The notes under the pieces were generated by a model. The model worked only from the letters and a program-made list of their open reading frames with translations, was not told where the DNA came from and ran no database searches. 64,000 bases of DNA from Bifidobacterium sp. ESL0682 (GTDB taxonomy: Bacteria; Actinomycetota; Actinomycetes; Actinomycetales; Bifidobacteriaceae): the NCBI RefSeq assembly GCF_029392815.1, contig NZ_CP113942.1:496001-560000 (forward strand), given 5' to 3'. The position numbers and the translations under genes are program-made. Positions 1,449 through 58,118 of this stretch are shown here, piece after piece (the stretch's first letter is position 1; every line of letters starts with the position of its first letter).

Positions 1449-2903
1449 ATGGCGGATCGCTTTCTGACAGAGTTGCGTGGATACAACAAGGAGCAGGTGG
1501 ACCAGAAGTTGGCCGAACTGCAGCAGACATTGGACGGTTTGCGCGCCCAGGTCGCTTCGAGTGATCAGACCATTCTCCAGTTGCGTGCGCAGCTTGCCGA
1601 AGAGAAGAACAAGGCTTCGAAGGCCTCGAAGGGCAATTCGTTCGCCTCGCTTGGCGCTAACGCCCAGCAGATGCTTGCCAGTGCCGAGCAGACCAGCACC
1701 GAGCTGGTCAACCGCGCCAAGCAGGACGCCTCAAGCACTCGCGCCGCTGCGGAACACCAGGCCGAGACGCTGGTCAACAATGCCAAGCTCGACGCGCAGC
1801 ATATCACCGATGAAGCTAATTCCAAGGCCGCCACGATTCTCGCCAAGGCACAGACCGAGTCCGAATCGATCACCACTTCCGCCAAGCAAGACGCTACCCG
1901 TCTGCGCGAGGAGACGGCCAAGAAGGTCACCGAGCAGCGCGACACCATCGAAATCGAGCTGACGAACACTCGCGAGGAACACAACAAGCGTATGGCCAGC
2001 GAAAAGGCCAAGCAGGATCGTGAGATCGCCGAACTCAAGGCGCAGACCACCCAGCAGGTTGCTGAGCAGCGCAAAACGGCCAGCGATGAGGTCGCCAAGC
2101 TCAAGAGTGACGCCAACGACCAGATTGAGGCTGCGCTGGCTGAGGCCAACAAGAAGCTTGCCAACGTGCGCGAGCAGGTCACCCGCCAGACCACCGAGGC
2201 CCAGCGCAAGGCCACGGAAATCATTGACGCCGCGAAGGCGAAGGCTCAGGGCATCACCGATGAGGCCGAGGTGCAGCGCACCAAGACCTTAAGCCAGGTC
2301 AACGCTGAGGTCGAGCAGATTCGCACCGATATCTCCGAGCAGCAGGAAGAGGCGACAGGCAAGGTTAACGACCTTTTGAAGCAGCTCGAGCAGAGCCGCG
2401 CCGCCGCCAAGAAGGAAACCGACAGCCTGATTGCCAAGGCCAAGGACATCCGCGACGAGGCCGATAACTACACGGTTGCGAAGCGCCAGGAAGCCGACAA
2501 GCAGGCCGAGGACATTATTGCCAAGGCCAAGAAGGATGCCGAAGCGCGCGTTGAGGAACGTCGTCAGGCCGCGCAGGGCGAACTCGATGGTTTGCAGAAG
2601 CGCATCAAGGACCTTCAGGAGCGCGAGTCGACCATTACTCAGCGTGTCACCGAGCTGCGTTCGATGTTCACCAACGCGTTCTCCGGCTTTGGTTTTGCCG
2701 ATAACAAGCAAGGCGGCGTGAATGTGCCGGTCGTTAATGCCGTGGCGAACGATCTCGACGATGCCGCCAAGCAGGACGGCGACGGCAAGGGCGAGAACGA
2801 TGCTGCCGATGCGTCTCAGGAAGCTGCGCAAGGTGATGCCTCAGCTCAGCAGGCTCCGGCCCAGTCTCAGCAAGCTTCTCAGGAAGAGCCGTCTGATGAG
2901 TGA
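1449..2903 (+). CDS. DivIVA-like long coiled-coil protein
   Basis: The start at 1449 is preferred over an upstream ATG at 1422 because GGAGGG lies about eight bases before it. The 484-residue product opens with FLTELRGYNKEQVDQKLAEL, which resembles the membrane-binding DivIVA head (RGYxxxxVDxFL). Residues of about 20-400 form an almost uninterrupted Ala/Lys/Glu/Gln-rich heptad coiled coil with repeated TxxAKxDA-type segments. The tail is acidic and Gln/Ala-rich. In Actinobacteria such proteins (Wag31/DivIVA type) organise polar growth or septation, so a cytoskeletal or division-site role is inferred. The gene overlaps pepC by 8 bp, so the two are probably co-transcribed. Confidence 0.65.
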   Translation: MADRFLTELRGYNKEQVDQKLAELQQTLDGLRAQVASSDQTILQLRAQLAEEKNKASKASKGNSFASLGANAQQMLASAEQTSTELVNRAKQDASSTRAAAEHQAETLVNNAKLDAQHITDEANSKAATILAKAQTESESITTSAKQDATRLREETAKKVTEQRDTIEIELTNTREEHNKRMASEKAKQDREIAELKAQTTQQVAEQRKTASDEVAKLKSDANDQIEAALAEANKKLANVREQVTRQTTEAQRKATEIIDAAKAKAQGITDEAEVQRTKTLSQVNAEVEQIRTDISEQQEEATGKVNDLLKQLEQSRAAAKKETDSLIAKAKDIRDEADNYTVAKRQEADKQAEDIIAKAKKDAEARVEERRQAAQGELDGLQKRIKDLQERESTITQRVTELRSMFTNAFSGFGFADNKQGGVNVPVVNAVANDLDDAAKQDGDGKGENDAADASQEAAQGDASAQQAPAQSQQASQEEPSDE

Positions 2904-4233
2904 TATGAAACCGCTGAGCGACGAACGTCTGGAACAGTTGCAGGAGGCTTTCGAAGCGAAGCCCGTCAACACGTTGGCGATGAACGCTGTCACTACCTCC
3001 GGCATCAACCCGGTAGCGCACAATTACGACCGCGCCCGCAGGCTTCAGCGCCGTTTCTCGGTGACCGTGGACAACAGCGAAGTCACCAACCAGAATCGTT
3101 CCGGGCGTTGCTGGCTCTTTAGCTCGCTGAACGTGGCGCGTTTTGTGGCCAAGAAGAACCTCAATCTCGATCAGTTCGAGTTCTCGCAGAACTATGCGAT
3201 GTATTTCGACAAGCTCGAGCGCATCAACTACTTCGTGCGCGATGTCGCAGACTTGGTTCGCGCCGGTGAACCTGCCGACTCCCAGCTGATGCAGCATCTG
3301 CTTGCTGACGTGATGGGTGACGGCGGCCAGTGGACGATGGCCATGAACGTCTACAAGAAGTACGGCGCCGTGCCCAAGGATTTCTTCCCGGAGACCGCAT
3401 CTTCCACCAACACCAGCGAGATGAACACACAGCTGCGCCGTCTGCTGCACACGGCCGTGGCGCACATGTACGCCGATCCGTCCGCCATCGACAGCATCGT
3501 CGACGAGACCGTCGAAGCCGGTCACCGCATGCTCACCATCCACTTGGGCGAGCCGCCGAAGAGCTTCGACTGGGAATGGACCGACAAGGACGGCAACTTC
3601 CACCGCGATGGCGAGACCACGCCGGTCGAGTTCTGGAAGAAGTACGTCGGCAGCGCCGATCTTGAGGATTACGTTTGCCTCGTAGACGACCCGCGCGCCG
3701 AGCACGCCAAGGGCAAGAAGATCGGTATCGAGCACTTGGGCAATGTCGTCGGTGGAGACCCGACCGAGTATCTGAACGTTCCCAACCAGTTCATGAAGGA
3801 CTGCGTGCGCCACATCCTTTCCGAAGAGGGCATGCCGGCTTGGTTCGGTGCGGATTGCCACCCGATGATGGACCGCAACAACGGCGCTTGGGCCACCGAC
3901 CTTTACGAATACGGCAAGGTCTACGACGTCGATTTCGACATGGACAAGGAAGCGCGCGTGCGTTACGGCGACTCCGCGATGAACCACGCGATGGCGTTCG
4001 TCGGTGTCGACGTGGCCGACGACGGCAAGACCACCAACCGCTGGCGCGTGGAGAACTCGTGGGGCTGCAAGGTGGCCGACAAAGGCTACTTCACCATGAG
4101 CGACGACTGGTTTAGCGAATACGTCTACGAGGTCGCCGTCCCGAAGTCGATGCTTCCCGCCGAATATCAGGCCGCGCTTAACGAGCCCGCCACGATGCTT
4201 CCAGCATGGGATCCGATGGGCGCTCTCGCGTAA
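2896..4233 (+). CDS. pepC: Aminopeptidase C (bleomycin-hydrolase family)
   Basis: This cytoplasmic papain-family (C1B) aminopeptidase trims N-terminal residues from peptides. The 445-residue length fits PepC. All catalytic elements are visible: the Gln and Cys in QNRSGRCWLFSSLN (near residue 75), the His in MNHAMAFVGVD and the Asn in RVENSWGCKV. The start is the ATG at 2896, which overlaps the last codons of the coiled-coil gene. A longer in-frame reading from 2722 only re-reads that gene. The coding end forms the left arm of a strong terminator hairpin. Confidence 0.95.
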   Translation: MSDMKPLSDERLEQLQEAFEAKPVNTLAMNAVTTSGINPVAHNYDRARRLQRRFSVTVDNSEVTNQNRSGRCWLFSSLNVARFVAKKNLNLDQFEFSQNYAMYFDKLERINYFVRDVADLVRAGEPADSQLMQHLLADVMGDGGQWTMAMNVYKKYGAVPKDFFPETASSTNTSEMNTQLRRLLHTAVAHMYADPSAIDSIVDETVEAGHRMLTIHLGEPPKSFDWEWTDKDGNFHRDGETTPVEFWKKYVGSADLEDYVCLVDDPRAEHAKGKKIGIEHLGNVVGGDPTEYLNVPNQFMKDCVRHILSEEGMPAWFGADCHPMMDRNNGAWATDLYEYGKVYDVDFDMDKEARVRYGDSAMNHAMAFVGVDVADDGKTTNRWRVENSWGCKVADKGYFTMSDDWFSEYVYEVAVPKSMLPAEYQAALNEPATMLPAWDPMGALA

Positions 4234-4631: not shown

Positions 4632-5150
4632 TTATGCGTGGTGTTTTTGCTGTCGGCGGTTGTTGGCGATGCCGGCGGCGGCCACGACGGCCAGCGCCAG
4701 GGCGAGGGCTGCGATGAGGACCCACTGGCGGCGTCCGCCGGTCAAAGGCATCTGGTGCTGGTAGATGCCGGCGATCTTCCATGTGCCGTTGGCGGGAACA
4801 CTGTATACCTGCGGGGTGCCGGTGCGGTAGGTGTCCGTGCTGCCCAGCGTGGCCGTGACCGTGGTGTCCCCACCCGCCAGGTCTCCCGCGTTGATGACGC
4901 GCGTCCACGTGTGGCTGGTGCTGCCGTCATAGGCCAGCGTGGCGCCGTGCCCGTCGGTCGCGTCGACGGCCACATTCGCGCATCCGGCCGCCCCGACGCA
5001 CACGCTGAGTCTGTCGCCGGCGGTGAGGGGTGTGGCGGTGCCGGTGACAGTGACCTGGTTGGTCGTGACATCGCGTTTCACGCTCGTGACCGTGGGTGTC
5101 CTGACCTCTCGCCAGACGGCGTAGTCGGTGGCCCACTGATGCAAACCGGG
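4632..5150 (-). CDS. Surface protein, C-terminal frame with MPLTG anchor
   Basis: The frame contributes HQWATDYAVW (end of an InlB-type repeat), an Ig-like domain (TPTVTSVKRDVTTNQVTVTG onward) and the cell-wall sorting signal: MPLTGG, a hydrophobic helix (WVLIAALALALAVVAAAGIA) and a basic tail NNRRQQKHHA. MPLTG is a variant of the LPXTG sortase motif. No sortase gene lies in this window, so a housekeeping sortase elsewhere is assumed. Confidence 0.65.
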   Translation of the reverse strand, partial: PGLHQWATDYAVWREVRTPTVTSVKRDVTTNQVTVTGTATPLTAGDRLSVCVGAAGCANVAVDATDGHGATLAYDGSTSHTWTRVINAGDLAGGDTTVTATLGSTDTYRTGTPQVYSVPANGTWKIAGIYQHQMPLTGGRRQWVLIAALALALAVVAAAGIANNRRQQKHHA

Positions 5151-8100
5151 GTGACGGGTGTGCTGTGGTTGAGGGCGCAGGTGCTGTTGGGCGTGCAGGC
5201 GTTCGCCCGTGTTGAATCGGCGCTGGTGGCCCACCCCTGGAAGACGCCGTGGTCGTCCGTGGGGCTGCCGGACGAATAGCCGTGCATGCCGTCGGCGCCG
5301 GGCATCCTGATCCAGGCTGTGCCGCTGCCCGTGTCGATGAGCGCGTCCGCATGACCGTCATGGGCGTTGCTCCCGCCGGGTGCCGTGCCGCTGCCGCCGT
5401 GCGTGGTGTTCACGTCCAGCGGCTGGCTCGCATACGCCAGCGTCCCGGAGGTGAGTCCGCTGCCAGCCTGGGTCGCTTCGGAATCGACGCTGTTGTTGGT
5501 GGCGGGGTCCTTGACCGTGTACATGGCGGTCATCGTGTACGCTAGGCCCGGGCCGGGGAACGTCGTGGACTGGCCTGCAGTCAGCGAGCCGGGCAGGCTA
5601 AACGTCGGCAGGCTCATGGTCTGCTGGCCGCCGGCGCTGCTTGCCACGCTCTGGCATTGGTCTGCCGCGTAGCCGCTGCTTTGGCTACTGGGCTTCACAC
5701 ACGCCTTGAACGAGGTGTCGCCCGTAGGCAGGTTGGCGGACACCTTCACCGTGGCCGTGCCCTGGTCGGGGGTGTTCGTGGTGACGTTCACCTTGTCGAC
5801 CGTGCCACTGGCCTCGCCGGTCAGCGCCTGCCACGTCGCATCGATCGCGGCCGCGCCGCCGGCGCCCTTGGGTGCGGTGAGCGTGTGGTTGCTGATCGTG
5901 GCCGCACCGCCGGTCACGCCGGTCGTGTCGAACGACCAGCCCTGGAACAGGGCGTGCGGCCTGTTGGCGGTGATATGGGTCGCCGCGTCGCCGGGTATGG
6001 TGTACGTGCCGTCTCGGAAGGTGGTGTCGATGGCGAGTCCCGTGGTGTCGGTGGTGCTGATGGTGGTGGGCAGAGCGTTGTCGCCGGTGCCGCCGTTGAG
6101 GTCGTATTTGAGGTCGGTGTAGGTGACGTTGACGTCGGTGCGGATGTAGGTGCCTTGGGGGTTGGCGCTTGCGGCGCGTGCCTTGAGGGCGTCGAGCGTG
6201 CCGGCCGTGGCGGCGCCGGCGGGGTCGGCGACGGGTCCCTGGTCGATGGGGTGGTGGCCTTGGGGCCAGTCCCATGTGTGCCAGGTGGTCGTCTGGCTGA
6301 TGGTGCTGAAGGGCCCCACGTGCGCGTTTCGGGTGGTGAGCCTGGTCCGTGGGCCGAGGCGGAGGCGTTTGAGGTTGGCAGGCAGCATGTCATTCATGTT
6401 GCCGTTGTAGCCGCCGGTGTCGATGCCGGTGGTGTCCCACCCGCTGATATCGAGGTCCTCCAGGGCGGTGTCGCCGTCGAACGTGAAGTTCAGGCTGGTG
6501 AGGGCGGTCGTGTCCCATCGGCTCAGGTCCAGTGTGGTGAGGCTGGTGCAGTCGCGTATGCCGAACATCTGGAGACTGTGGGTGTCCCATGCGCCGATGC
6601 CTTTGATGCCGGTGAGGGCTGTGTTCGCTATGAACAGCATGTCCATGGCGGTGGCGGTGCCGGTCTTCCATCCGGTCAGGTCGACCGATGGCAGGGCCTG
6701 GTCGTAATAGAACAGGTGGCTGCCGCCGGATTTGTCGAGGGTGACGGGGTGGCCGTTGTCGTCGATGCGGGTGAGCAGGGGCATGTTGCCGAACGGGGTC
6801 GCGTTGCTGCTGTACGAGCGGGCGTCGTCGCCGGTCAGGGTGAGGTCGCCCTCGATGGAGATGCCGGTGATGCCGGGTTTCGAGGCGTCCCACGGGGTCG
6901 TTCTGGTGTTGAGGTTGGGGCTGGTGCCGCCGGTCAGGCGCAGGGTATCGTTCTGGATGGTCCAGCAGACCTCGGCGTCGACGCGGTCCAGGCCGGCGGT
7001 GGGCGATCCCGTTCTGCCGTCGTGCCCGTAGGGGGCGCCCCAGGATTGCCAGCCGGCCGAATCGCCGCAGTGGCCCGGTTTGGGTGCGTTCCCCAGCGGG
7101 ATCCAGCGGGCGTAGAGGGTCAGCAGGGTCTCGTTGTCCCCGCCGGGCGTGCCGGCGGAGGAGGGCACCGCGGTGGCGTTGCCGGACGGATAGTCCGTGC
7201 CGGTGCCGTCGGACGTGGTGTTCCATTTGCCAAACGTCTGGGCCGGCGGCGGGGTGCCGATGCCGCCGGGCAGGGGCACATAGGCGTTGCGGTCGCCGGA
7301 GTCGATGAGGCCCCTGACGCTGCCGTCGCCTCCCGGCTGCTGCTGGCTGCCGGGCCTGAGGGCGACGGTCATGTAGGGCAGAACGCCGTTGACTCGCGTC
7401 CAGCCGCTGGTGACGGCGGCGCCGGTGGAATCGATGGCGTTGGAGCGCACCTCTGCGGTCCATGTGGCGCCGGGTGTGAAGCCGGTGTCGTCCGTTGTGA
7501 AGGAACCGGCGGGTACGATCGGCGAGTAGCTGAGGCTCCAGGAGAGGGCGCCGGGGCTGCCCTTGACCCGGATGTCCCATCCCGTGGCGTTCATGGGCAG
7601 CCCGGAGGCCGTGAACGAGACCTTCCCATGGCCGTTGTCGCGCTTCCATGTCGCGCTCACGCCGGTGGGCGCGGGCAGGTCAACCCAGATGGCGTAGAGC
7701 GTCACTGTGGTCTTGCCGTTGGCGGTCGTGCCGGCCGTGGTCGGGATGACCTGGGCGCCGGACGGGAAGGTGCTGCCGGTGCCGTCGGCCGCGGTGGCCC
7801 AGTTGCCGAACACCTTGCCGGCCAGGCCCATGCCCGAACCGTCGGGCAGTGTGAACCAGGCCTTGCCGGTGGGCGTGTCCACCAGCGCCTGCTTGCCGGC
7901 GGGGGCGGTGCCGGTCGTGGCGTTGTTGCGGTCGAAGCCCACACTGACATAGGGCAGGACGGCCTGCCTGACGTCGGGGTCGCTGCCCACGGTGCGGCCC
8001 GTGGCCGGGTCGACGCGGCTCATGCTGGCGCTCAGCTTGTACTGGCCGTCCCAGCCGGAACGCAGCTGGCTCGGCGTGAGGCTCCAGGTCAGGGTGTCCG

Positions 8101-8530
8101 CGCCACCCGCGGTGGCATACGGCTGACTGACACTCCAACCCGAACCGAACGCGGAAGACACATTCAACGTGTCACCGGCCTGGTGGGCGGGCATAGACAC
8201 CACGACGTCGACGCTTGGCGTGGCACCCGCCGCGGCGTGCACATTCGGCGCGGCCATCGTCGGACCAGTGAGTACGGACCAGGCGGCCGACAAGGTTAGC
8301 GTGGTGTGATTGCCCGTGGTCGTGCCCTCACTGGTGGCGATGGTGGCTTGGCCAGGCTGACGCGTCCGCCCGCCACCGGTCCAACCGGCGTAAAGCATGT
8401 GGCTGGGGTTGATGAGATTAGAAGGCTGGGGTAGAGTAAACACTGCCGTGCCGCCGGCCGTGTCGACCAGTGCGTCGAGCGTGGCCGGCGCACTGCCGGT
8501 GGCGCCGTTCTTGTCGAACGACACGCTCAT
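5078..8530 (-). CDS. Surface protein, central frame (second LRR module)
   Basis: Beginning at the ATG that overlaps the previous TGA, this frame gives MSVSFDKNGATG, which continues an InlB-type repeat (compare YMNVSFAAGGASGD in the first frame). Four such repeats alternate with Ig-like domains up to about residue 480. A second lead domain (GHCGDSAGWQSWGAPYG) follows, then DUF285 repeats near 600-710 with units such as LTTLDLSRWDTTALTSLNF and the cap MLPANLKRLRLG, then further repeats. The last sensible segment is NHSTPVTPV; the remaining residues before the stop are out-of-frame reading. It would be translated only through coupling or after repair of the first break. Confidence 0.55.
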   Translation of the reverse strand: MSVSFDKNGATGSAPATLDALVDTAGGTAVFTLPQPSNLINPSHMLYAGWTGGGRTRQPGQATIATSEGTTTGNHTTLTLSAAWSVLTGPTMAAPNVHAAAGATPSVDVVVSMPAHQAGDTLNVSSAFGSGWSVSQPYATAGGADTLTWSLTPSQLRSGWDGQYKLSASMSRVDPATGRTVGSDPDVRQAVLPYVSVGFDRNNATTGTAPAGKQALVDTPTGKAWFTLPDGSGMGLAGKVFGNWATAADGTGSTFPSGAQVIPTTAGTTANGKTTVTLYAIWVDLPAPTGVSATWKRDNGHGKVSFTASGLPMNATGWDIRVKGSPGALSWSLSYSPIVPAGSFTTDDTGFTPGATWTAEVRSNAIDSTGAAVTSGWTRVNGVLPYMTVALRPGSQQQPGGDGSVRGLIDSGDRNAYVPLPGGIGTPPPAQTFGKWNTTSDGTGTDYPSGNATAVPSSAGTPGGDNETLLTLYARWIPLGNAPKPGHCGDSAGWQSWGAPYGHDGRTGSPTAGLDRVDAEVCWTIQNDTLRLTGGTSPNLNTRTTPWDASKPGITGISIEGDLTLTGDDARSYSSNATPFGNMPLLTRIDDNGHPVTLDKSGGSHLFYYDQALPSVDLTGWKTGTATAMDMLFIANTALTGIKGIGAWDTHSLQMFGIRDCTSLTTLDLSRWDTTALTSLNFTFDGDTALEDLDISGWDTTGIDTGGYNGNMNDMLPANLKRLRLGPRTRLTTRNAHVGPFSTISQTTTWHTWDWPQGHHPIDQGPVADPAGAATAGTLDALKARAASANPQGTYIRTDVNVTYTDLKYDLNGGTGDNALPTTISTTDTTGLAIDTTFRDGTYTIPGDAATHITANRPHALFQGWSFDTTGVTGGAATISNHTLTAPKGAGGAAAIDATWQALTGEASGTVDKVNVTTNTPDQGTATVKVSANLPTGDTSFKACVKPSSQSSGYAADQCQSVASSAGGQQTMSLPTFSLPGSLTAGQSTTFPGPGLAYTMTAMYTVKDPATNNSVDSEATQAGSGLTSGTLAYASQPLDVNTTHGGSGTAPGGSNAHDGHADALIDTGSGTAWIRMPGADGMHGYSSGSPTDDHGVFQGWATSADSTRANACTPNSTCALNHSTPVTPVCISGPPTTPSGERSGHPRSRA

Positions 8531-11133
8531 CCAATCAATACACCGTCGAGGTCGCCGGAGGGGGAAGTCGCGCCGCCGCTGGTCTGGATGGCGGTGAAGT
8601 GGTGAGTGCCGCCGTAACCGTATCGCTGGAGGTAGTCGCTGGCCTTGAACTTGACGTTCCATTGCCATGCGCCGGTCCCTTGACCGGAGCGGTTGGCTTG
8701 TAGACAGGTATCGGTGCCGATTGAGCCTTGCGTCATGCATGCGTTGACCGAGTCTCCGCCGATGCCGTCGGCGTTGCCGGCCAGTTCAACTTCGTTGGTG
8801 CCGGAAAGATATATGGCGGTAAGGTTGTGAGGTGCCGGTACACCCTGCCAAAGGGCCGTCATCGTCAGCGAGGTGCATGCCCCGCTGGTTGTGCCGGCCG
8901 ATTTGCTGATGGTTGCGGTGCCTGCTGGCCACGTGGCGCCGCCGCCCGACCATCCCATGAACGCATAACCCGTTCTGGCCAAATTTCCTTTTCCGGGAAG
9001 GGTAGGTGATGCAGTACCTGCGCCCGTATCGATGAGAGCCTTCACATCGGCCGGTGCGTCGCCCGAAGCGCCACCCGCAGCGAACGAGACATTCATATAT
9101 GGTAGAGTGCCGGACGCGGTTCCCGCTGCGCTGGTTACCGCGTTGCCGGTGGCCGGGTCATTGGCCGTGGTGGTCACGCTGACGCTGTACGTGCTGCCCG
9201 GAGCGGATTCCAGCTGGCTTGCGGCAATACTGTTGGATCCGTTCCACGAGCAGCTGTTACTGCTGGAACAGCTGGAGCTGCCGCCCTGTCCCGTTGTCAG
9301 GTTCATTCTTCCGCCTGACGGGGCCGACGCGTTGCTGGCCGAAAGGTCCACCGTCGCAGTGCTCCCGGCCAACGCATGTGTGGCACCTATCGACACTGTC
9401 GGTTTGGGCATGTCTTTCCATTGTGCGTAGAGATTGTAAGTGGTGTTCGCGCCTTTGGGGAAGCTGGCATAAGCGCCGGAATTATAGGAAGTGCCTGTGT
9501 CGCTGCTGTTGGTGTTCCAATGAGTAAACAGTTTGGCTGAGGGGTTGCCGGAAATATATGAGCTGGGATAGGGCATGTAGAATCCGTTGGACCCAGTGGT
9601 GGTGTCTGCCTCAAGGTTTGCCCATCCGCCGCCAGATCCGCCGTTGGCGTACATGTAACTCAAGCGTACGCAACTGGGAGACAGCGCACTATCGGTGGTG
9701 TAATAGTCACCTGCAATGTTGGTGCCTTGGGAGACGCGGCTGGCAAGGGCGGCCGTATTGCCGATGGTGGTGATGGATGCGCAGTGACCCGGGCTGCTGG
9801 TATAGGCCTCCCATGTGAGGTTGGCAGGTACATTGTTGAACGCGGGGAAGCTATGTGAGTAGCCTTGTAATAGAGCGGTATGCTGCCCCAACTTGAGATG
9901 GCGCAGGCTGGAGGGCAACATGTTGAGAAAGGGGCCTCCTTCTGTGGTCTCTCTTGCTGCACGTGTGTCCCAGTTGGATAGGTCCAGGCTGGTCAGACTG
10001 TCGCAGCCGGAAAATATTTGACTCATATTGTCGACTTTGCTGGTGTCCCAGTTGGATAGGTCTAAGCTGGTCAGTCCGCTGCAACCGTAAAACATGGTGC
10101 TAACGTCATTGACGTTGCTGGTGTTCCAATTGGCAATATTCAGGTTCGTAAGCCCGGTATCTTGGGAGAACATATTGTCGAGGAGAAGAGCATTGCCCAT
10201 GTTCCAACCAGATAGGTTCAAGCTACGTAGGTTTGTAGTTTTCATGAACATATTTTGGAAGTGAGTGTTTTGGCTGACGTCCCAGTTTTCGATGCCGTTT
10301 ATGGTCGTCAAAGAGTCGTCGAATTCCAAGAAACCTTCGGCAGCCGCACCGGCGAGGTGGAGGGTACCTTGGGTTGTATCGAAGGAGGTGAGGTTATGCA
10401 TTTGACCGAAGGCGCTTTGATTATGATCCATGTAATACCAATGGGTGTATAGCGTAAGGTTGCCTTCGATTTGCACTCGAGTAATCCGCGAGGCGTAAGA
10501 GCTATTGACCCACTGGATCCAAGGCGCGGGTACTTTTCCTATGTCGGGGCTGGTGCCGCCGGAAATGTGGAGGGTGCAGGAGCTGTCAACATACCAGGTG
10601 ACGGTACTTGAATCTCTGCCATAAATATTAGGTAGGCCGTCGGCGCTGGTGGCTGGTGTTCCCCAGGCAGCCGGGCTGGACGGTGTGCAATAGGACTGTG
10701 GCCCAACCGAAGGTTGTTCGTTTTCTGAGTTGGACTTTGACTTGTTGGTGCTGCTTGCTCCAGTTGGTTGGCTGTCGAATGAGCCAAACGTCGATATCGT
10801 GGGAGTAGGGCTTAATGGAGAGCGTGGGGTTAAAAGTGTTGGCAGTGAACGCTGAATTGCCATGGAAGGCTGCGGGGATTGCTGGGTCGCGATGGTGCGT
10901 TGTGCGGTGGAATGGGATTGTGAGGAAATAGACTGAAGCGAATCAGAATAAGTGGAATGTGAAGCGGACCGCGACGATGCGGAAGGGCCGGAAGAGGCCG
11001 AATGCGAGGAGAATTGTATTACGTTATTTGACGGCGAACTGTCGACGGTTAGAAATCCCGCGGGGGGGGGGGTAGTATTCAATGCTGTTGTAATACAAAT
11101 AAATAGCGTGACTATGCTTTTAAAAACACCCAT
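8527..11133 (-). CDS. Surface protein, N-terminal open frame (first LRR module)
   Basis: These 868 residues begin with MGVFKSIVTLFICITTALN, a short basic head and hydrophobic core fitting a signal peptide, followed by TTPPPAG encoded across an 11-C tract. Residues of about 30-145 are Ser/Thr/Gln-rich. A lead domain starts near 148 (YCTPSSPAAWG), and DUF285-type repeats lie near 280-400, where the unit is like LTSLDLSNWDTSKVDNMS. A capping segment MLPSSLRHLKLG follows. Next come InlB-like repeats (FTHWNTNSSDTGTSY; GYAFMGWSGGGATW) separated by Ig-like stretches. AAAAGGG upstream of the ATG may be its ribosome-binding site. The frame ends mid-domain at TGA, immediately overlapped by an ATG in the next frame. 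Confidence 0.7.
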   Translation of the reverse strand: MGVFKSIVTLFICITTALNTTPPPAGFLTVDSSPSNNVIQFSSHSASSGPSASSRSASHSTYSDSLQSISSQSHSTAQRTIATQQSPQPSMAIQRSLPTLLTPRSPLSPTPTISTFGSFDSQPTGASSTNKSKSNSENEQPSVGPQSYCTPSSPAAWGTPATSADGLPNIYGRDSSTVTWYVDSSCTLHISGGTSPDIGKVPAPWIQWVNSSYASRITRVQIEGNLTLYTHWYYMDHNQSAFGQMHNLTSFDTTQGTLHLAGAAAEGFLEFDDSLTTINGIENWDVSQNTHFQNMFMKTTNLRSLNLSGWNMGNALLLDNMFSQDTGLTNLNIANWNTSNVNDVSTMFYGCSGLTSLDLSNWDTSKVDNMSQIFSGCDSLTSLDLSNWDTRAARETTEGGPFLNMLPSSLRHLKLGQHTALLQGYSHSFPAFNNVPANLTWEAYTSSPGHCASITTIGNTAALASRVSQGTNIAGDYYTTDSALSPSCVRLSYMYANGGSGGGWANLEADTTTGSNGFYMPYPSSYISGNPSAKLFTHWNTNSSDTGTSYNSGAYASFPKGANTTYNLYAQWKDMPKPTVSIGATHALAGSTATVDLSASNASAPSGGRMNLTTGQGGSSSCSSSNSCSWNGSNSIAASQLESAPGSTYSVSVTTTANDPATGNAVTSAAGTASGTLPYMNVSFAAGGASGDAPADVKALIDTGAGTASPTLPGKGNLARTGYAFMGWSGGGATWPAGTATISKSAGTTSGACTSLTMTALWQGVPAPHNLTAIYLSGTNEVELAGNADGIGGDSVNACMTQGSIGTDTCLQANRSGQGTGAWQWNVKFKASDYLQRYGYGGTHHFTAIQTSGGATSPSGDLDGVLIG
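11062..11072 (-). repeat. 11-base poly-C (coding strand) tract, likely contingency locus
   Basis: Eleven consecutive G on the plus strand read as C on the coding strand, in codons 21-25 just after the signal-peptide core. At this length the reading frame is open for 868 codons. Gain or loss of one base would close it. Confidence 0.9.
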
Positions 11134-11462
11134 GGCACCAAACCCTTTTCATGCTTCATGAAATGCGCCAAACTCAACGCATTACTAAAATCATCATTAA
11201 TTTACAATATCCGTAGTACAAAAGTGATGGTTTCGTGTTACATTGTCGCGGCGAGTTGATGCGGCGGTTGGTTCCGTATGGGTAGGCGGATGGGCGGAAT
11301 GTCGGCGTGAAATCGACTTTGAAGAGAACTGGGTTCCCCGCTCTGTTTGGGCTACTCGAAATGCAATGCGTGTTCCCGTGCCGGATGTGCAACAGTGGAT
11401 GGCAGACTCGGCGGCGACCTGTTTTTATAGTGAACCAGCGATGGTGTGCGCATGAAGATGGC

Positions 11463-11468
11463 TATAAT
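11463..11468 (+). promoter_or_regulatory. -10 box upstream of the first DAHP synthase
   Basis: A consensus TATAAT with a weak -35 region upstream (GATGGT at 11440-11445), leaving a leader of about 45 bases before the start codon. Confidence 0.5.
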
Positions 11469-11519
11469 AGACACCCTATGGTCAATTGACGCCAATGGGC
11501 GTTCGGACGAGAGGAGGGA

Positions 11520-12662
11520 ATGATGGCGATTATGCGAGGGCCTGGAAGTTCGGAGGATGCTCGGCGATTCAGCGAGGAAGCTGTTTATCCCGAAACCGTG
11601 GATGTCAACATCCGTCAGCTCGACCCGATTCCCGCGCCGCGCGAGTTTCTGAAAGAACGTCCACTGACCAAGCCGATGAGCGACCTGGTGCTGAAGTCGC
11701 GTCAGGAAATCCGCGACATCCTGCACGGGCGCGACGATCGGTTGCTTGTCATTGTCGGCCCCTGCTCGATTCACGATCCCGAGGCGGCGAAGGATTACGC
11801 CGGGCGGCTCGCCAAGGTCAACGAGGAACTCAAGGACCGTCTGATGATCGTCATGCGCGTCTATTTCGAGAAGCCGCGTACCACCGTGGGCTGGAAGGGC
11901 CTGATCAACGACCCGGATCTCGACGGCGAATTCAATATTCGCAAGGGTATGTTCCTGGCTCGCAAGGTGCTTTCCGACGTGCTCGAGCTTGGTCTGCCGA
12001 CTGCTACCGAATGGCTGGATCCGATCACTCCGCAATACATCTGCGACATGGTCAGCTGGGGCGCCATCGGCGCGCGCAACACGGAGAGCCAGGTGCACCG
12101 CGAGCTGGCCAGCGGCATGTCGATGCCGATTGGCTTCAAGAACTCCACCGACGGTTCGGTGAAGGTTGCCGCCGATTCCTGCTACGCCGTGGCCAACGAG
12201 CATCATTTCCTTTCAATTAACCTCGACGGTCGCGTTATTTCCGCGGAAACCAAGGGTAATCCGGATTGCCATATCGTTTTGCGCGGTTCGAGCAGTGGAC
12301 CGAATTACGACGCGGAATCTGTGGCCAAGGCGCTGGAAACACTGAAACAGTCCAAGGTTACTGGGCCCAGCGAGCACGGTCTGGTCATTGACGCCGCGCA
12401 TGGCAATTGCGGCAAGGATGAGGTGCGCGAGGCTGAGGTGATCGAGGAAATCGCCGCACGCTTGGCCAAGGGCGAACCTGGCATTTTCGGCGTGATGATG
12501 GAAAGCAATATCCGTGGCGGCCACCAGTCGCCTGCGCCGCTCGATCAGCTGGTCTACGGCCGCTCGGTCACCGATGCCTGCATTCCATGGGACCGAACCA
12601 ACGAGCTGCTCCACACCCTTGCCGACGCTGTTGCTACCCGCCGCAAGCTCGACGGTGAGTGA
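11520..12662 (+). CDS. aroG: 3-deoxy-7-phosphoheptulonate (DAHP) synthase, copy 1
   Basis: The enzyme condenses phosphoenolpyruvate and erythrose 4-phosphate in the first step of the shikimate pathway to aromatic amino acids. The 380-residue class I (AroF/G/H-type) protein shows VGPCSIHDP near residue 79, KPRTTVGWKGLINDP, ARNTESQVHRELASGMSMP, the metal-site region HGNCGKDEV and MMESNIRGG. AGGAGG at 11512-11517 serves either ATG 11520 or ATG 11523; the second has the better spacing. A second DAHP synthase follows, so these are probably isoenzymes with different feedback control. Confidence 0.95.
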   Translation: MMAIMRGPGSSEDARRFSEEAVYPETVDVNIRQLDPIPAPREFLKERPLTKPMSDLVLKSRQEIRDILHGRDDRLLVIVGPCSIHDPEAAKDYAGRLAKVNEELKDRLMIVMRVYFEKPRTTVGWKGLINDPDLDGEFNIRKGMFLARKVLSDVLELGLPTATEWLDPITPQYICDMVSWGAIGARNTESQVHRELASGMSMPIGFKNSTDGSVKVAADSCYAVANEHHFLSINLDGRVISAETKGNPDCHIVLRGSSSGPNYDAESVAKALETLKQSKVTGPSEHGLVIDAAHGNCGKDEVREAEVIEEIAARLAKGEPGIFGVMMESNIRGGHQSPAPLDQLVYGRSVTDACIPWDRTNELLHTLADAVATRRKLDGE

Positions 12663-12676
12663 ATAAAACCGTTATT

Positions 12677-12722
12677 GCGACCAAAAGCACGATGTTGATG
12701 TTTATTTTTGTGCTTTGGTCGC
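12677..12722. repeat. Inverted repeat between the two DAHP synthase genes
   Basis: GCGACCAAAAGCAC and GTGCTTTGGTCGC pair with one bulged base around a 19-nt AT-rich loop. It lacks a clean T-run, so it may be a terminator or a member of the same extragenic repeat family as the elements near 18.7 and 23.9 kb, which share GTGCTTTTGGTCG-like words. Confidence 0.5.
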
Positions 12723-12879
12723 AGTAAAAATGCAACTACGACAAAAACGCGGGAAAGCATGCTTTTAGCCGCGGCAGTGTGACAGTTTCAGATGTGGTCT
12801 GGTATGCCTTGTCGGCGCTATGATCGATATGTTGACAAAGACTAATAGATCGACAACTACGACAGAGAGAAGTTTGGCG

Positions 12880-14103
12880 ATGGCGAACGCGGAAAGCAAG
12901 CCGGGTAGCAGTGAGCAGAACGACCAGGGCATTGACGCCGCCAAAAACCATGCCGCTTTCGAAAAGGCGCGGAAAAACGGAGAGAACCCTCTGAAGGTCA
13001 GTGGCATCACGCGCTGGGAGGATGAGGCCGGCGTCAATCGCATCGTCAACCGTCGCGTTTTCGAGCTTGAGCCGTTGCCCACTCCGGCCGATGTGCTCTC
13101 CAACATGCCGCTGAGTTCCGAGGCGACAGATTTGGTCGTTCGCTCCCGCGATGAGATTCGCAACTGCCTCTATGGCAAAGACGACCGGTTGTTGGTAATT
13201 ACCGGTCCTTGCTCGGTTCACGACCCTGCGGCAGCGCTGGATTACGCGGGCCGTCTGGCGAAGATGAAGGACGAGCTCGGCGATCGTTTGCTTATCGTCA
13301 TGCGCGTCTATTTCGAGAAGCCACGCACCACCGTGGGCTGGAAGGGCCTGATCAACGACCCCGACATCGACGGCAGTCACAACATCAAGAAGGGCCTGCT
13401 GCTCGCGCGCAAAACTTTGCTTGGTGTGCTTGATCAGGGTGTTGCGGCTGCGACGGAGTTTCTGGAGCCGACCAGCCCGCAATATATTTCCGATGCGGTG
13501 AGCTGGGGTGTCATTGGTGCGCGCAACACCGAATCGCAGATTCATCGTCAACTGGCCAGTGGGCTTTCGATGCCGATTGGCTTCAAGAACGCCACAGACG
13601 GGTCCGTCAAGGCCGCCATCGATGGCTGCTATACGGCTGCTCAACAGCATACGTTCTTCGGCATCGACCATCTGGGCCGGGCAAGCGCCGTCGAAACACT
13701 TGGCAACCCTGACTGCCACGTCGTATTGCGCGGCTCCTCAACCGGACCCAATTACGATGCGGTGTCGGTCGGACAAGCGATGCAGGATATTCGTGGCGAG
13801 ATGCCGGAGGACTCCGCTGCGAGCCACGGTCTCATCATCGACTGCTCGCACGGCAATTCCGGCAAAGACGAGATTCGTCAGGCCGAGGTCGTGCGTGAAT
13901 TGGCCGGCCGCATCGCCGTAGGCGAGCCCAATATCACCGGCTTGATGATGGAAAGTTTCATCGCCGGAGGCAATCAGCCGGCGGCTCCGCTTTCCCAACT
14001 CGAATACGGCAAGTCAATCACCGACAAGTGCATCGCCTGGCCCGAAACGGAACGTCTCCTCCGAGAGCTTGCCGACGCAGTAGATGTTCGCCGCGGCGCA
14101 TGA
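12880..14103 (+). CDS. aroG: 3-deoxy-7-phosphoheptulonate (DAHP) synthase, copy 2
   Basis: This second class I DAHP synthase has 407 residues and shares long blocks with copy 1 (ITGPCSVHDP, KPRTTVGWKGLINDPDIDG, ARNTESQIHRQLASGLSMP, CSHGNSGKDEI, LMMESFIAGG). It carries an extra N-terminal extension of about 45 hydrophilic residues. The frame is open from 12820, but ATG 12880 is preferred: a GAGAGAAG sequence precedes it and a TTGACA hexamer at 12832-12837 would lie inside the longer reading. It may have its own promoter rather than depend on read-through from copy 1. Confidence 0.93.
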   Translation: MANAESKPGSSEQNDQGIDAAKNHAAFEKARKNGENPLKVSGITRWEDEAGVNRIVNRRVFELEPLPTPADVLSNMPLSSEATDLVVRSRDEIRNCLYGKDDRLLVITGPCSVHDPAAALDYAGRLAKMKDELGDRLLIVMRVYFEKPRTTVGWKGLINDPDIDGSHNIKKGLLLARKTLLGVLDQGVAAATEFLEPTSPQYISDAVSWGVIGARNTESQIHRQLASGLSMPIGFKNATDGSVKAAIDGCYTAAQQHTFFGIDHLGRASAVETLGNPDCHVVLRGSSTGPNYDAVSVGQAMQDIRGEMPEDSAASHGLIIDCSHGNSGKDEIRQAEVVRELAGRIAVGEPNITGLMMESFIAGGNQPAAPLSQLEYGKSITDKCIAWPETERLLRELADAVDVRRGA

Positions 14104-16564: not shown

Positions 16565-17553
16565 GTGACGATGACATCAGAAAGCGGTGGCGCGGGCGAG
16601 GCGATGTCCGTGGGTGCGGTGGATGCCAAGCCGCACAGGCATAGCCAAGACCGGATTTTCCATGCGGTGGCCGTGTGCTGTGGTGCCTTGATATTGGTGG
16701 CTTTGGGCGCGGTGGTGCTCTTCCTGCTGCTGCGCGCCTGGCCGATTTTTGCCGGTCCGCAGGCTAAGACTTCCGCGGTTTTCGCCTCCCTGAGCGGCGG
16801 CAAGGCACACGGGTTCTGGCAATATGTCGGGCCTCTGGTTTTCGGTACTGTGGTGATTGCGGCGCTTGCGCTGGCAATCGCCTTTTTTATAGCTGTTGGC
16901 GTGGCCTTGTTCATCACCTTCTACGCGCCGAAACGCCTCGGCACAGTGCTCAATTACGTCGTTGATTTGCTGGCCGCAATTCCTTCGGTCATCTACGGCC
17001 TGTGGGGCGCGCTGGTGCTGGTTCCGGCGATGTACCCGTTCTGGAATTGGGTTTCCAAACATCTGGGCTGGATTCCGTTGTTCGCCGGCCCTGCCGCCAA
17101 CCCGCCACGCACCGTAGCCAGCGCCGCGGTGATTCTGGCCATCATGATCATGCCCATCATCACTTCGATGACCCGCGACATCTTCGCCCAGACTCCGCGA
17201 CTCAATCAGGAAGCGGCGCTCGCGCTGGGTGCCACCAAATGGGAGATGATCAAGCTGACCGCCCTGCCGTTCGCTAAGTCCGGCATGGTCTCGGCCTCGA
17301 TGCTGGCGCTTGGCCGCGCACTGGGGAGACCATGGCCGTGATGATGGTGCTTTCGCCAGGCATGACCTATTCGTGGCACTGGCTGCAGGCATCGAAAAGC
17401 CAGACCATCGCCGCCAACATCGCCGCGCAATACCCTGAAGCTGATTCGCTTGGCGTCTCCGCTCTGATTGCTACCGGTCTCGTCCTCTTCGTCATCACGT
17501 TCGTGGTGAATCTCCTTGCCCGACGCATCACCAAGAAGGGAGGTGCGCGATGA
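16565..17553 (+). pseudogene. pstC: Phosphate ABC transporter permease PstC (one-base frameshift)
   Basis: PstC is one of the two membrane subunits of the phosphate importer. The frame from GTG 16565 (or ATG 16571), with AGGAG just before, reads through the permease loop QEAALALGATKWEMIKL up to ALGRALG and then stops early at 17341. The next frame resumes with MAVMMVLSPGMTYSW and runs to the true C-terminus at 17553. The family sequence is GRALGETMAV, and one extra G in the GGGG at 17323-17326 restores it exactly, giving about 329 residues. Because the neighbours are intact this is more likely a base-calling error than gene loss. The stop overlaps the pstA start (ATGA). Confidence 0.85.
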
Positions 17554-22366: not shown

Positions 22367-23760
22367 ATGGACAAGTTCTTCCATCTCAAAGAAAATCACA
22401 CTACGGTATCCACTGAAATCACAGCGGGCATCACCACCTTCTTCGCGATGAGCTATATTATCGTCGTCAATCCGCAAGTCCTAAGCACCACCGGCATGCC
22501 GTGGGGCGCCGTGTTCCTCGCCACCATCATCGCCTCCGTCGCCGGAACCTTGGTGATGGGCCTCTTCGCCAACGTTCCCTATGCGCAATCCGCAAGCATG
22601 GGTCTCAACGCCTTCTTCGCCTACACCGTCTGCGCCGGCCTCGGCTTCACCTGGCAAGAGACGCTGTGCATGACGTTCCTGTGCGGTCTGATCAATATTC
22701 TGGTCACCGTTACCTCCATCCGCAAGCTCATCATCGCCTGCATCCCCGAATCGTTGCAGCACGCCATCGGTGGCGGCATCGGTCTGTTCGTGATGTACGT
22801 CGGCATGCTGAACGTCGGTTTCATTTCCTTCACCCCAGGCGACCCGAAGGCTGCTGCCAAGGGCGGCCCAATTCACGCGACTCCTGGACTTTCGATGCTC
22901 AACAACCCCGAACTCTGGGTCTTCCTCATCGGCTTGGCCATCGCCATCGTGCTCACTCTGCTTAACGTTCGTGGTTCGTTGTTGATTTCCATCATTGCCG
23001 CCGCCATCATCGGCATTCCCTTCGGCGTGACCAACATGTCCAATTCGGTGTCCATCGGCTCCACCTTCGCCCAGCTGCCCACCACCTTCCTCGCGATCTT
23101 CAGCCCGCAGGGCTTCCCGGCGCTCTTCGGCAATCTCGGTCGTCTGCCACTCGTGATTGTCACCATCTTCGCCTTCTCGATGCCGATATGTTCGACACCA
23201 TCGGCACCTTGGTCGGCACAGGCCGCAAGACCGGCATCTTCTCCGACCAGGACATCAAGAACATGGCCGACGGCCACGGCTTTAGCTCCAAGATGGACAA
23301 GGCCCTCTTCGCCGATTCCATCGCCACTTCCGTCGGCGGCTTGTTCGGCACCTCCAACATCACCACCTACGTCGAGTCCTCGGCCGGCATTGCCGCGGGC
23401 GGCCGCACTGGCCTGACTTCGGTAACCGTGGCCGTCTGCTTCATCATCTCGATGTTCCTCTCGCCGCTGGTCTCCGCGATCCCGTCCGCCGCAACGGCCG
23501 GCGTCTTGGTCGTGGTCGGCTGCATGATGGCCTCCAGCTTGAAGGAAGTCGACTGGGGCGACCTCGCCGAGGCCATTCCGGCCCTCTTCGCCTCGGTGTT
23601 CATGGCGCTTTCGTACTCGATTTCCTACGGCATCGCCGCGGGCTTCATCATGTACTGCCTGGTCAAGATCTGCAAGCGCAAGACCAAGGACATCAGCCCG
23701 GTGATGTGGATCGTCACTGCTCTCTTCGTCCTCGACTTCGCCTTGCAGGCCGTTCTCTGA
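22367..23760 (+). pseudogene. AzgA-type (NCS2) purine permease, one-base frameshift
   Basis: The product is a guanine/hypoxanthine/adenine-type permease of the COG2252 branch, with about twelve membrane helices. The first frame carries GITTFFAMSYIIVVNPQ, NAFFAYTVC and QHAIGGGIGLFVMYVG and derails after IFAFSM at 23182. The other frame continues MFDTIGTLVGTGRKTGIF, TTYVESSAGIAAGGRTGLTSVTV and the C-terminus. The expected junction is FSMADMFDT, restored by one extra G after ATG (ATGGCC for ATGCC), giving about 464 residues. GGAAGAGAGAA precedes the ATG. All conserved blocks are present, so the break is probably a sequencing artefact. Confidence 0.8.
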
Positions 23761-57899: not shown

Positions 57900-58118
57900 T
57901 TATCTGCCTGCCACGCACCCTGATTTTGTCGTGTTGCAGTTAGTCAGGGGCTTAAGTACAATGGTGAGTTGTTGTGTTTCCCTAGAGGGGTCCTTCAAAG
58001 CGCTTTCCCACTCGCACTAGGACTTTCAGGGAGCCCACGGATAAAGCGGTCGGAAAGGCATCATCGTAAGGTTTTGCCGATTTGGCCGGGAACACAATAT
58101 AAAGAAAAAGGTACACTC

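Follow-up and report, generated by a model that had tools for sequence, protein, structure and literature searches.

A run of 11 identical bases sits directly behind what looks like a signal peptide in a surface-protein gene of Bifidobacterium sp. ESL0682, and the question this locus raises is whether the run acts as an on/off switch for that gene. A sequence-only reading had proposed that it does, in a giant sortase-anchored protein, in the ON register and by the kind of mechanism known from bifidobacterial pilin genes. We evaluated this proposal in the 64,000-nucleotide stretch around the run (hereafter the window; contig NZ_CP113942.1, positions 496,001 to 560,000), in the rest of the genome and in other genomes of the genus.

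The C11 tract and the gene behind it

Evaluating the letters first reported, we found the 11 identical bases present at 11062-11072, as G11 on the forward strand and as C11 (ACC CCC CCC CCC) on the minus strand that carries the gene. Within the open reading frame at 8527-11133, the tract takes up the last two bases of codon 21 and all of codons 22 to 24, such that the proposed span of codons 21-25 begins correctly and ends too late. Upstream on the minus strand are the start codon and a signal-peptide-like N-terminus, MGVFKSIVTLFICITTALNT (11074-11133), which was judged by eye and by its likeness to paralogues in which it recurs, and a Shine-Dalgarno-like AAAAGGG (11143-11149) in a GGGTTTGGT-like leader that is conserved among the copies of this module described below. 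A scan of 11050-11530 for promoters and terminators found none (shuffles, 0.7 and 0.5). The claim that no other homopolymer in the window is this long was borne out and can be extended, as the tract is the window's only homopolymer of at least 8 bases (a first-order chain predicts 0.009 runs of at least 11 for C and 0.010 for G) and the only C/G run of at least 9 in the entire 2,093,512-base genome. In silico, C11 opens a frame of 868 aa, C10 leads to a stop after 27 residues and C12 to a stop after 36, so that two hallmarks of contingency loci are found here: a coding-region homopolymer longer than chance, and a one-base change that toggles between a long and a truncated product. The database entry equal to the window protein (P0002) begins at residue 91 and is thus without the tract.

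The gene itself does not fit the single giant sortase-anchored gene that had been described, as it is split over three frames of the minus strand. The first frame piece (8527-11133, 868 aa) holds a Ser-rich stretch, a DUF285 domain (BspA-like leucine-rich; residues 277-388, 9970-10305, E 3.4e-22) and a repeat region, and it stops at 8527 without an anchor. A frame break within 8527-8580, for which a one-base loss or a two-base gain would account, separates it from the second piece (5078-8540), in which a second DUF285 lies at 6422-6685 (E 2.8e-7), and a further break within 5100-5190, which fits loss of one base, separates that from the third (4632-5161), which carries a sortase-type anchor (MPLTGG), a membrane stretch and a basic tail. 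The C-terminal anchor therefore belongs to the third frame and not to the frame of the tract. With scores of 78.9 and 30.7 bits against a cut-off of 25, DUF285 was the sole Pfam domain of the first and second pieces, and stop codons are absent apart from the two frame shifts. In the sister genes L178 and L179, tract and anchor stand in a single frame. No solved structure matched at E up to 0.01.

The surface gene sits between pepC (2722-4233), which encodes an aminopeptidase-type protease, and a DAHP synthase gene (11520-12662). The latter is the first of two tandem DAHP synthase genes (11520-14103), about 60% identical when compared across relatives, and the pair also occurs in the loci of eight relatives. 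Neighbours with Pfam matches were Peptidase_C1_2, Peptidase_C15, DivIVA (below cut-off) and the two DAHP synthases; neither a pilin domain (in the first two pieces) nor a sortase (among the immediate neighbours) was found by Pfam. In four relatives (L034-L037) pepC adjoins the DAHP synthase gene directly and the surface gene is absent, indicating that it was either gained here or lost there. Across 80 loci around DAHP synthase, some with short flanks, none of the three pieces gave a tblastn match between pepC and aroF at E 1e-8, so there is no orthologue tract length to compare. Searching named genomes with the window protein returned 19 stretches that fitted a pattern, none of which was confirmed.

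Recurrence of the module in this genome and across the genus

Within the genome, 11 of the 20 C/G runs of at least 6 stand behind the same kind of signal peptide (binomial P about 9e-27, assuming 25 genes of 120 nt). Run length among these module copies is C11 in the window, C8 in L178 and L179, and C6 in the remaining eight (L175, L177, L180, L265, L266, L267, L270, L271). Three copies read in frame, for 868 aa in the window, 830 aa in L178 and 1481 aa in L179, while at C5 or C8 frames of 505-1660 aa would open in six of the C6 copies; L265 and L175 reach only 116-142 aa in their best register, pointing to a further break. Several sister genes end anchorless or shift frame, and L178 matches the window protein (phmmer 1e-65) yet has no Pfam match. 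Counterparts of the window copy's signal peptide occur at least 12 times elsewhere in the genome, and two of these, L175:3301 (with an open frame of 867 aa) and L269, lack a C-run. In an alignment of the 5' regions of 12 copies, the ATG is invariant and the leader is conserved. Of the other nine runs, eight lie elsewhere and one is a G7 some 75 codons inside another DUF285 gene (L174:4249); out of frame as given, it represents a second tract type in the family. Elsewhere, genome positions 141451 (L302) and 149648 (L303) show the same flanks around C7 and C6, 8 kb apart, marking a duplicated stretch.

Extending the search to the genus, we matched the window protein in 34 of 112 genomes, this one included. 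Tracts of C9 or longer (C9+) were then sought in 20 hand-chosen genomes, comprising this one, 18 others of the 34, and G095, which has no match. This yielded 202 tracts, of which we read 100 from 16 genomes, leaving out those of G012 (74), G056 (25), G094 (1) and G095 (2). Among the 100, 32 follow a signal-peptide-like start and are themselves followed by a match to the window protein (phmmer E below 1e-4), 7 follow such a start with no match behind them, 1 precedes a DUF285 gene whose start is unclear, and 60 lie elsewhere. In four complete genomes, 33 of the 51 C9+ tracts stand behind a signal peptide (G085, 6/12; G087, 16/25; G088, 6/6; G089, 5/8), 30 of these 33 before a relative of the window protein. 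The three without such a match are all among the 16 of G087, where L284 carries a Listeria-Bacteroides repeat and no DUF285 by Pfam, and where further signal-peptide types carry the C-run at the same place. All 33 are exactly one C short of the open frame, at both C9 and C10, and behind the 30 matched OFF copies the downstream frames stay open for 620-2161 aa.

Other registers do occur. One C too many is found in B. commune (L231, C11) and in ESL0763 (L259, C9, DUF285 by Pfam), and among the 36 C9+ copies, the window copy counted in, that of the window is the only one ON. Left out of this count were G082 L292 and L291, G025 L232, G092 L299 and B. commune L238. L291 is a C10 one short, with a good signal peptide, a BspA-like N-terminus by eye and no Pfam match, and L299 has DUF285 with an unclear start; as for L292 (from MAG B-bin1) and L232 (from B. 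commune), we rejected both as module copies, as they look like chance. Four family-rich genomes, G083 (ESL0728), G086, G090 and G091, have no C9+ tract at a signal peptide, from which we conclude that the C-run is not general to DUF285 genes. Comparing tract lengths among relatives, as the sequence-only reading had suggested, showed differences between paralogues and between species, from C6 to C11, and found no orthologue at the locus itself. We take bees to be the source of this Bifidobacterium group. Separately, G085 and G089 hold a repeat with C10 or C11 and no long frame behind it (L209, L211, L212, L246, L247, L248), flanked by sequence near 'cccta' and 'gcgatg'.

Assembly reliability, frame offsets and competing explanations

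The state of the window copy depends on the number of Cs in the assembly, and we therefore assessed how this assembly treats homopolymers. Genome-wide there are 20 C/G runs of at least 6, compared with 87-169 in ten relatives; per Mb this is 9.6 here and 33.6-88.9 in the relatives, a 3.5- to 9-fold deficit (with some genome sizes rounded). Runs of four and five are not scarce here within the stretches that were counted, and A-runs of at least 7 (47, against 43-153) are low yet inside the range of the relatives. When open reading frames of a 55-kb B. commune sequence were aligned to the window, over spans that sum to about 31 kb, two single-base deletions emerged, one near 17326, where the relatives' G5 is G4 here (flanking identity 79% and 99%), and one near 23182 (90% and 90%). 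At both places L034 and L036 agree with B. commune against the window, so that the deletions stand out relative to three related species (L034, L036, L037), and by the look of the sequence we take the two genes hit to be a phosphate-type ABC permease and a nucleobase permease. Apparent frame changes near 57988 and 24200 relative to the relatives were dropped, as the DNA there looks non-coding. The two deletions, falling in conserved genes, are likely assembly errors and bear on any frame call in this genome. The simplest reading of the run shortage is an assembly that shortens long C/G runs, while natural scarcity of such runs together with real decay may be the alternative. Run shortage and deletions together leave the count of 11, the ON register and both frame breaks uncertain, so that the state of the window copy (C11, ON, broken twice) cannot be taken at face value; the ON register that had been claimed is correct for the letters as given, with a C count that is not to be trusted.

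These observations frame how the tract is to be read. We consider it probable that, with its C11 tract, the window contains one copy of a module for slipped-strand phase variation. Recurrence across the family (11 genes here and 33 in the four complete genomes) and the one-base toggle argue for this, and the case for a switch rests more on the relatives than on this locus. The opposite registers of B. commune (C11) and ESL0763 (C9) also count for a switch. Against it count the double break downstream of the tract, the absence of the gene at this place in L034-L037, and the family-rich genomes without a tract together with the two run-less sister copies. The first two of these would fit a dead copy, in which the family is real and this member is a decaying pseudogene that has lost its anchor and for which the tract no longer matters. 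We regard this as rather unlikely: one protein lies over three frames and several sister genes are likewise anchorless or frame-changed, but the deletions in two conserved genes of the same window and the run-poor assembly mean that the breaks may be sequencing errors, and the protein has no stop codons besides the two shifts. That the tract reflects chance or codon bias, with proline codons merely happening to be CCC, is hardly credible. CCC is indeed used more often than any other proline codon in the three family genes that are in frame (76 of 194, compared with 61 of 285 in eleven housekeeping genes), and L175:3301 and L269 carry the signal peptide without the run, but the runs cluster at a single site across several genomes and many genes, and in most copies the frame that passes through the run is not the one in which the gene goes on.

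Random switching is expected to leave about one third of copies ON, and free random switching would not give the same offset in 33 of 33, which counts against a switch. A single offset throughout means shared ancestry among the copies, selection for OFF in culture, recoding, or an undercall that affects long C-runs generally. Of the 25 C9+ tracts in G087, 24 are exactly C9 whether they belong to the family or not, a uniformity suggestive of an assembly effect or of an equilibrium length that the tracts have in common. Programmed recoding, by which transcriptional slippage or ribosomal frameshifting at the C-run would yield a fixed share of full-length protein with no heritable switch, would account for all 33 tracts being one short, at C9 and C10 alike and behind several signal peptides. 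It nonetheless appears very unlikely, given that three copies here (C11, C8, C8) have no offset and those of B. commune and ESL0763 an opposite one, that the C6 copies need another shift, such that one rule does not fit all lineages, and that a common undercall of long C-runs would likewise produce a uniform offset. Also counting against a switch, 8 of the 11 copies here are at C6, which is short for a fast-slipping run, though this may itself be an undercall. More tentatively, we raise the possibility of a default-OFF phasome in a group of bifidobacteria, in which up to 16 giant BspA-like genes per genome share one kind of C-run switch, all parked one C short of ON in the isolates of the four genomes, and are turned on in different combinations in the host. 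If this were so, the shared offset would reflect strong counter-selection in culture or low-level recoding.

Proposed mechanism and relation to known systems

Under phase variation, the order of parts suggests how the module would work. A ribosome-binding site would be followed by a short Sec-type signal peptide and then by the C-run, which would supply proline codons where the mature protein begins. Slippage by one C during replication would shift the reading frame and so connect the remainder of the gene to its sole export signal or disconnect it. In the ON state a BspA-like giant would be exported and anchored to the cell wall, and in the OFF state only a peptide of roughly 24-60 residues would be made (for the copies as assembled). 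With several to many paralogues headed by the module in some genomes, a population could present many surface-protein combinations. Such a scheme presumes that tract length changes in living cells, that the protein may serve as an adhesin and that host selection may favour switching.

Repair genes are consistent with slippage. MutS_V was found in none of seven genomes tested and NucS in all seven, and Mycobacterium NucS leaves indels of 1-2 bases unrepaired (PMC11551767), so little repair of slippage is expected, and its rate is directly testable. If the tracts do slip, one clone could in principle display thousands of combinations of giant surface proteins, and a presumed commensal would then show a behaviour best known from pathogens. 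Such phasomes may also be overlooked elsewhere, since the 5' module may escape gene callers. The entry in the database begins downstream of it, and a search for relatives with the first 60 residues of the L179 protein, the N-terminus of the module, returned 24 candidates, none of which was kept at E up to 10.

Poly-G and poly-C contingency loci of Neisseria and Campylobacter are coding homopolymers that switch surface genes, in other phyla and other protein families. We found no publication on a C-run switch in this BspA-like family in the open-licence literature, judged by titles and opening lines. Closer at hand, in B. breve and relatives, a G-tract switches sortase-dependent pilus clusters ON and OFF. 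In B. breve, alleles placed in frame yielded pilus-like structures, mouse passage enriched for a tract length that apparently allows expression, and the authors caution that database tract lengths may deviate from the real ones (PMC9187656). The likenesses are a homopolymer (8-13 in their case) that separates the secretion signal from the remainder of a surface gene, the same genus, a slip that joins two parts, and a reference strain, UCC2003, that is out of frame at both loci (PMC9187656). The systems differ in that theirs are G-tracts in the first gene of pilin-sortase clusters, at 1-2 loci per genome in their table (PMC9187656), whereas ours are C-tracts in BspA-like genes, at 1 to 16 per genome where the module is found, with no sortase or pilin among the immediate neighbours of the window copy. 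The suggested link to pilin genes thus stands as a likeness to the described system (PMC9187656) and not as membership, which we rejected for the window gene on the Pfam matches of its immediate neighbours and the DUF285-only content of its first two pieces.

In protein family, the nearest parallel is Candidatus Mycoplasma girerdii, which has at least 28 BspA-like genes, eight of them affected by length-variable simple repeats, and in which OFF is the commonest state for a number of genes (PMC5476646), as OFF copies are common here too. The repeats there are mostly dinucleotides, in a wall-less mollicute and with length variants counted in reads (PMC5476646), whereas here C-runs stand right behind the signal peptide in an actinobacterium, with lengths taken from assemblies alone. 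The type of switch is therefore already known from bifidobacterial pili, and what appears to be new is its occurrence in another protein family and at a larger scale within the genus.
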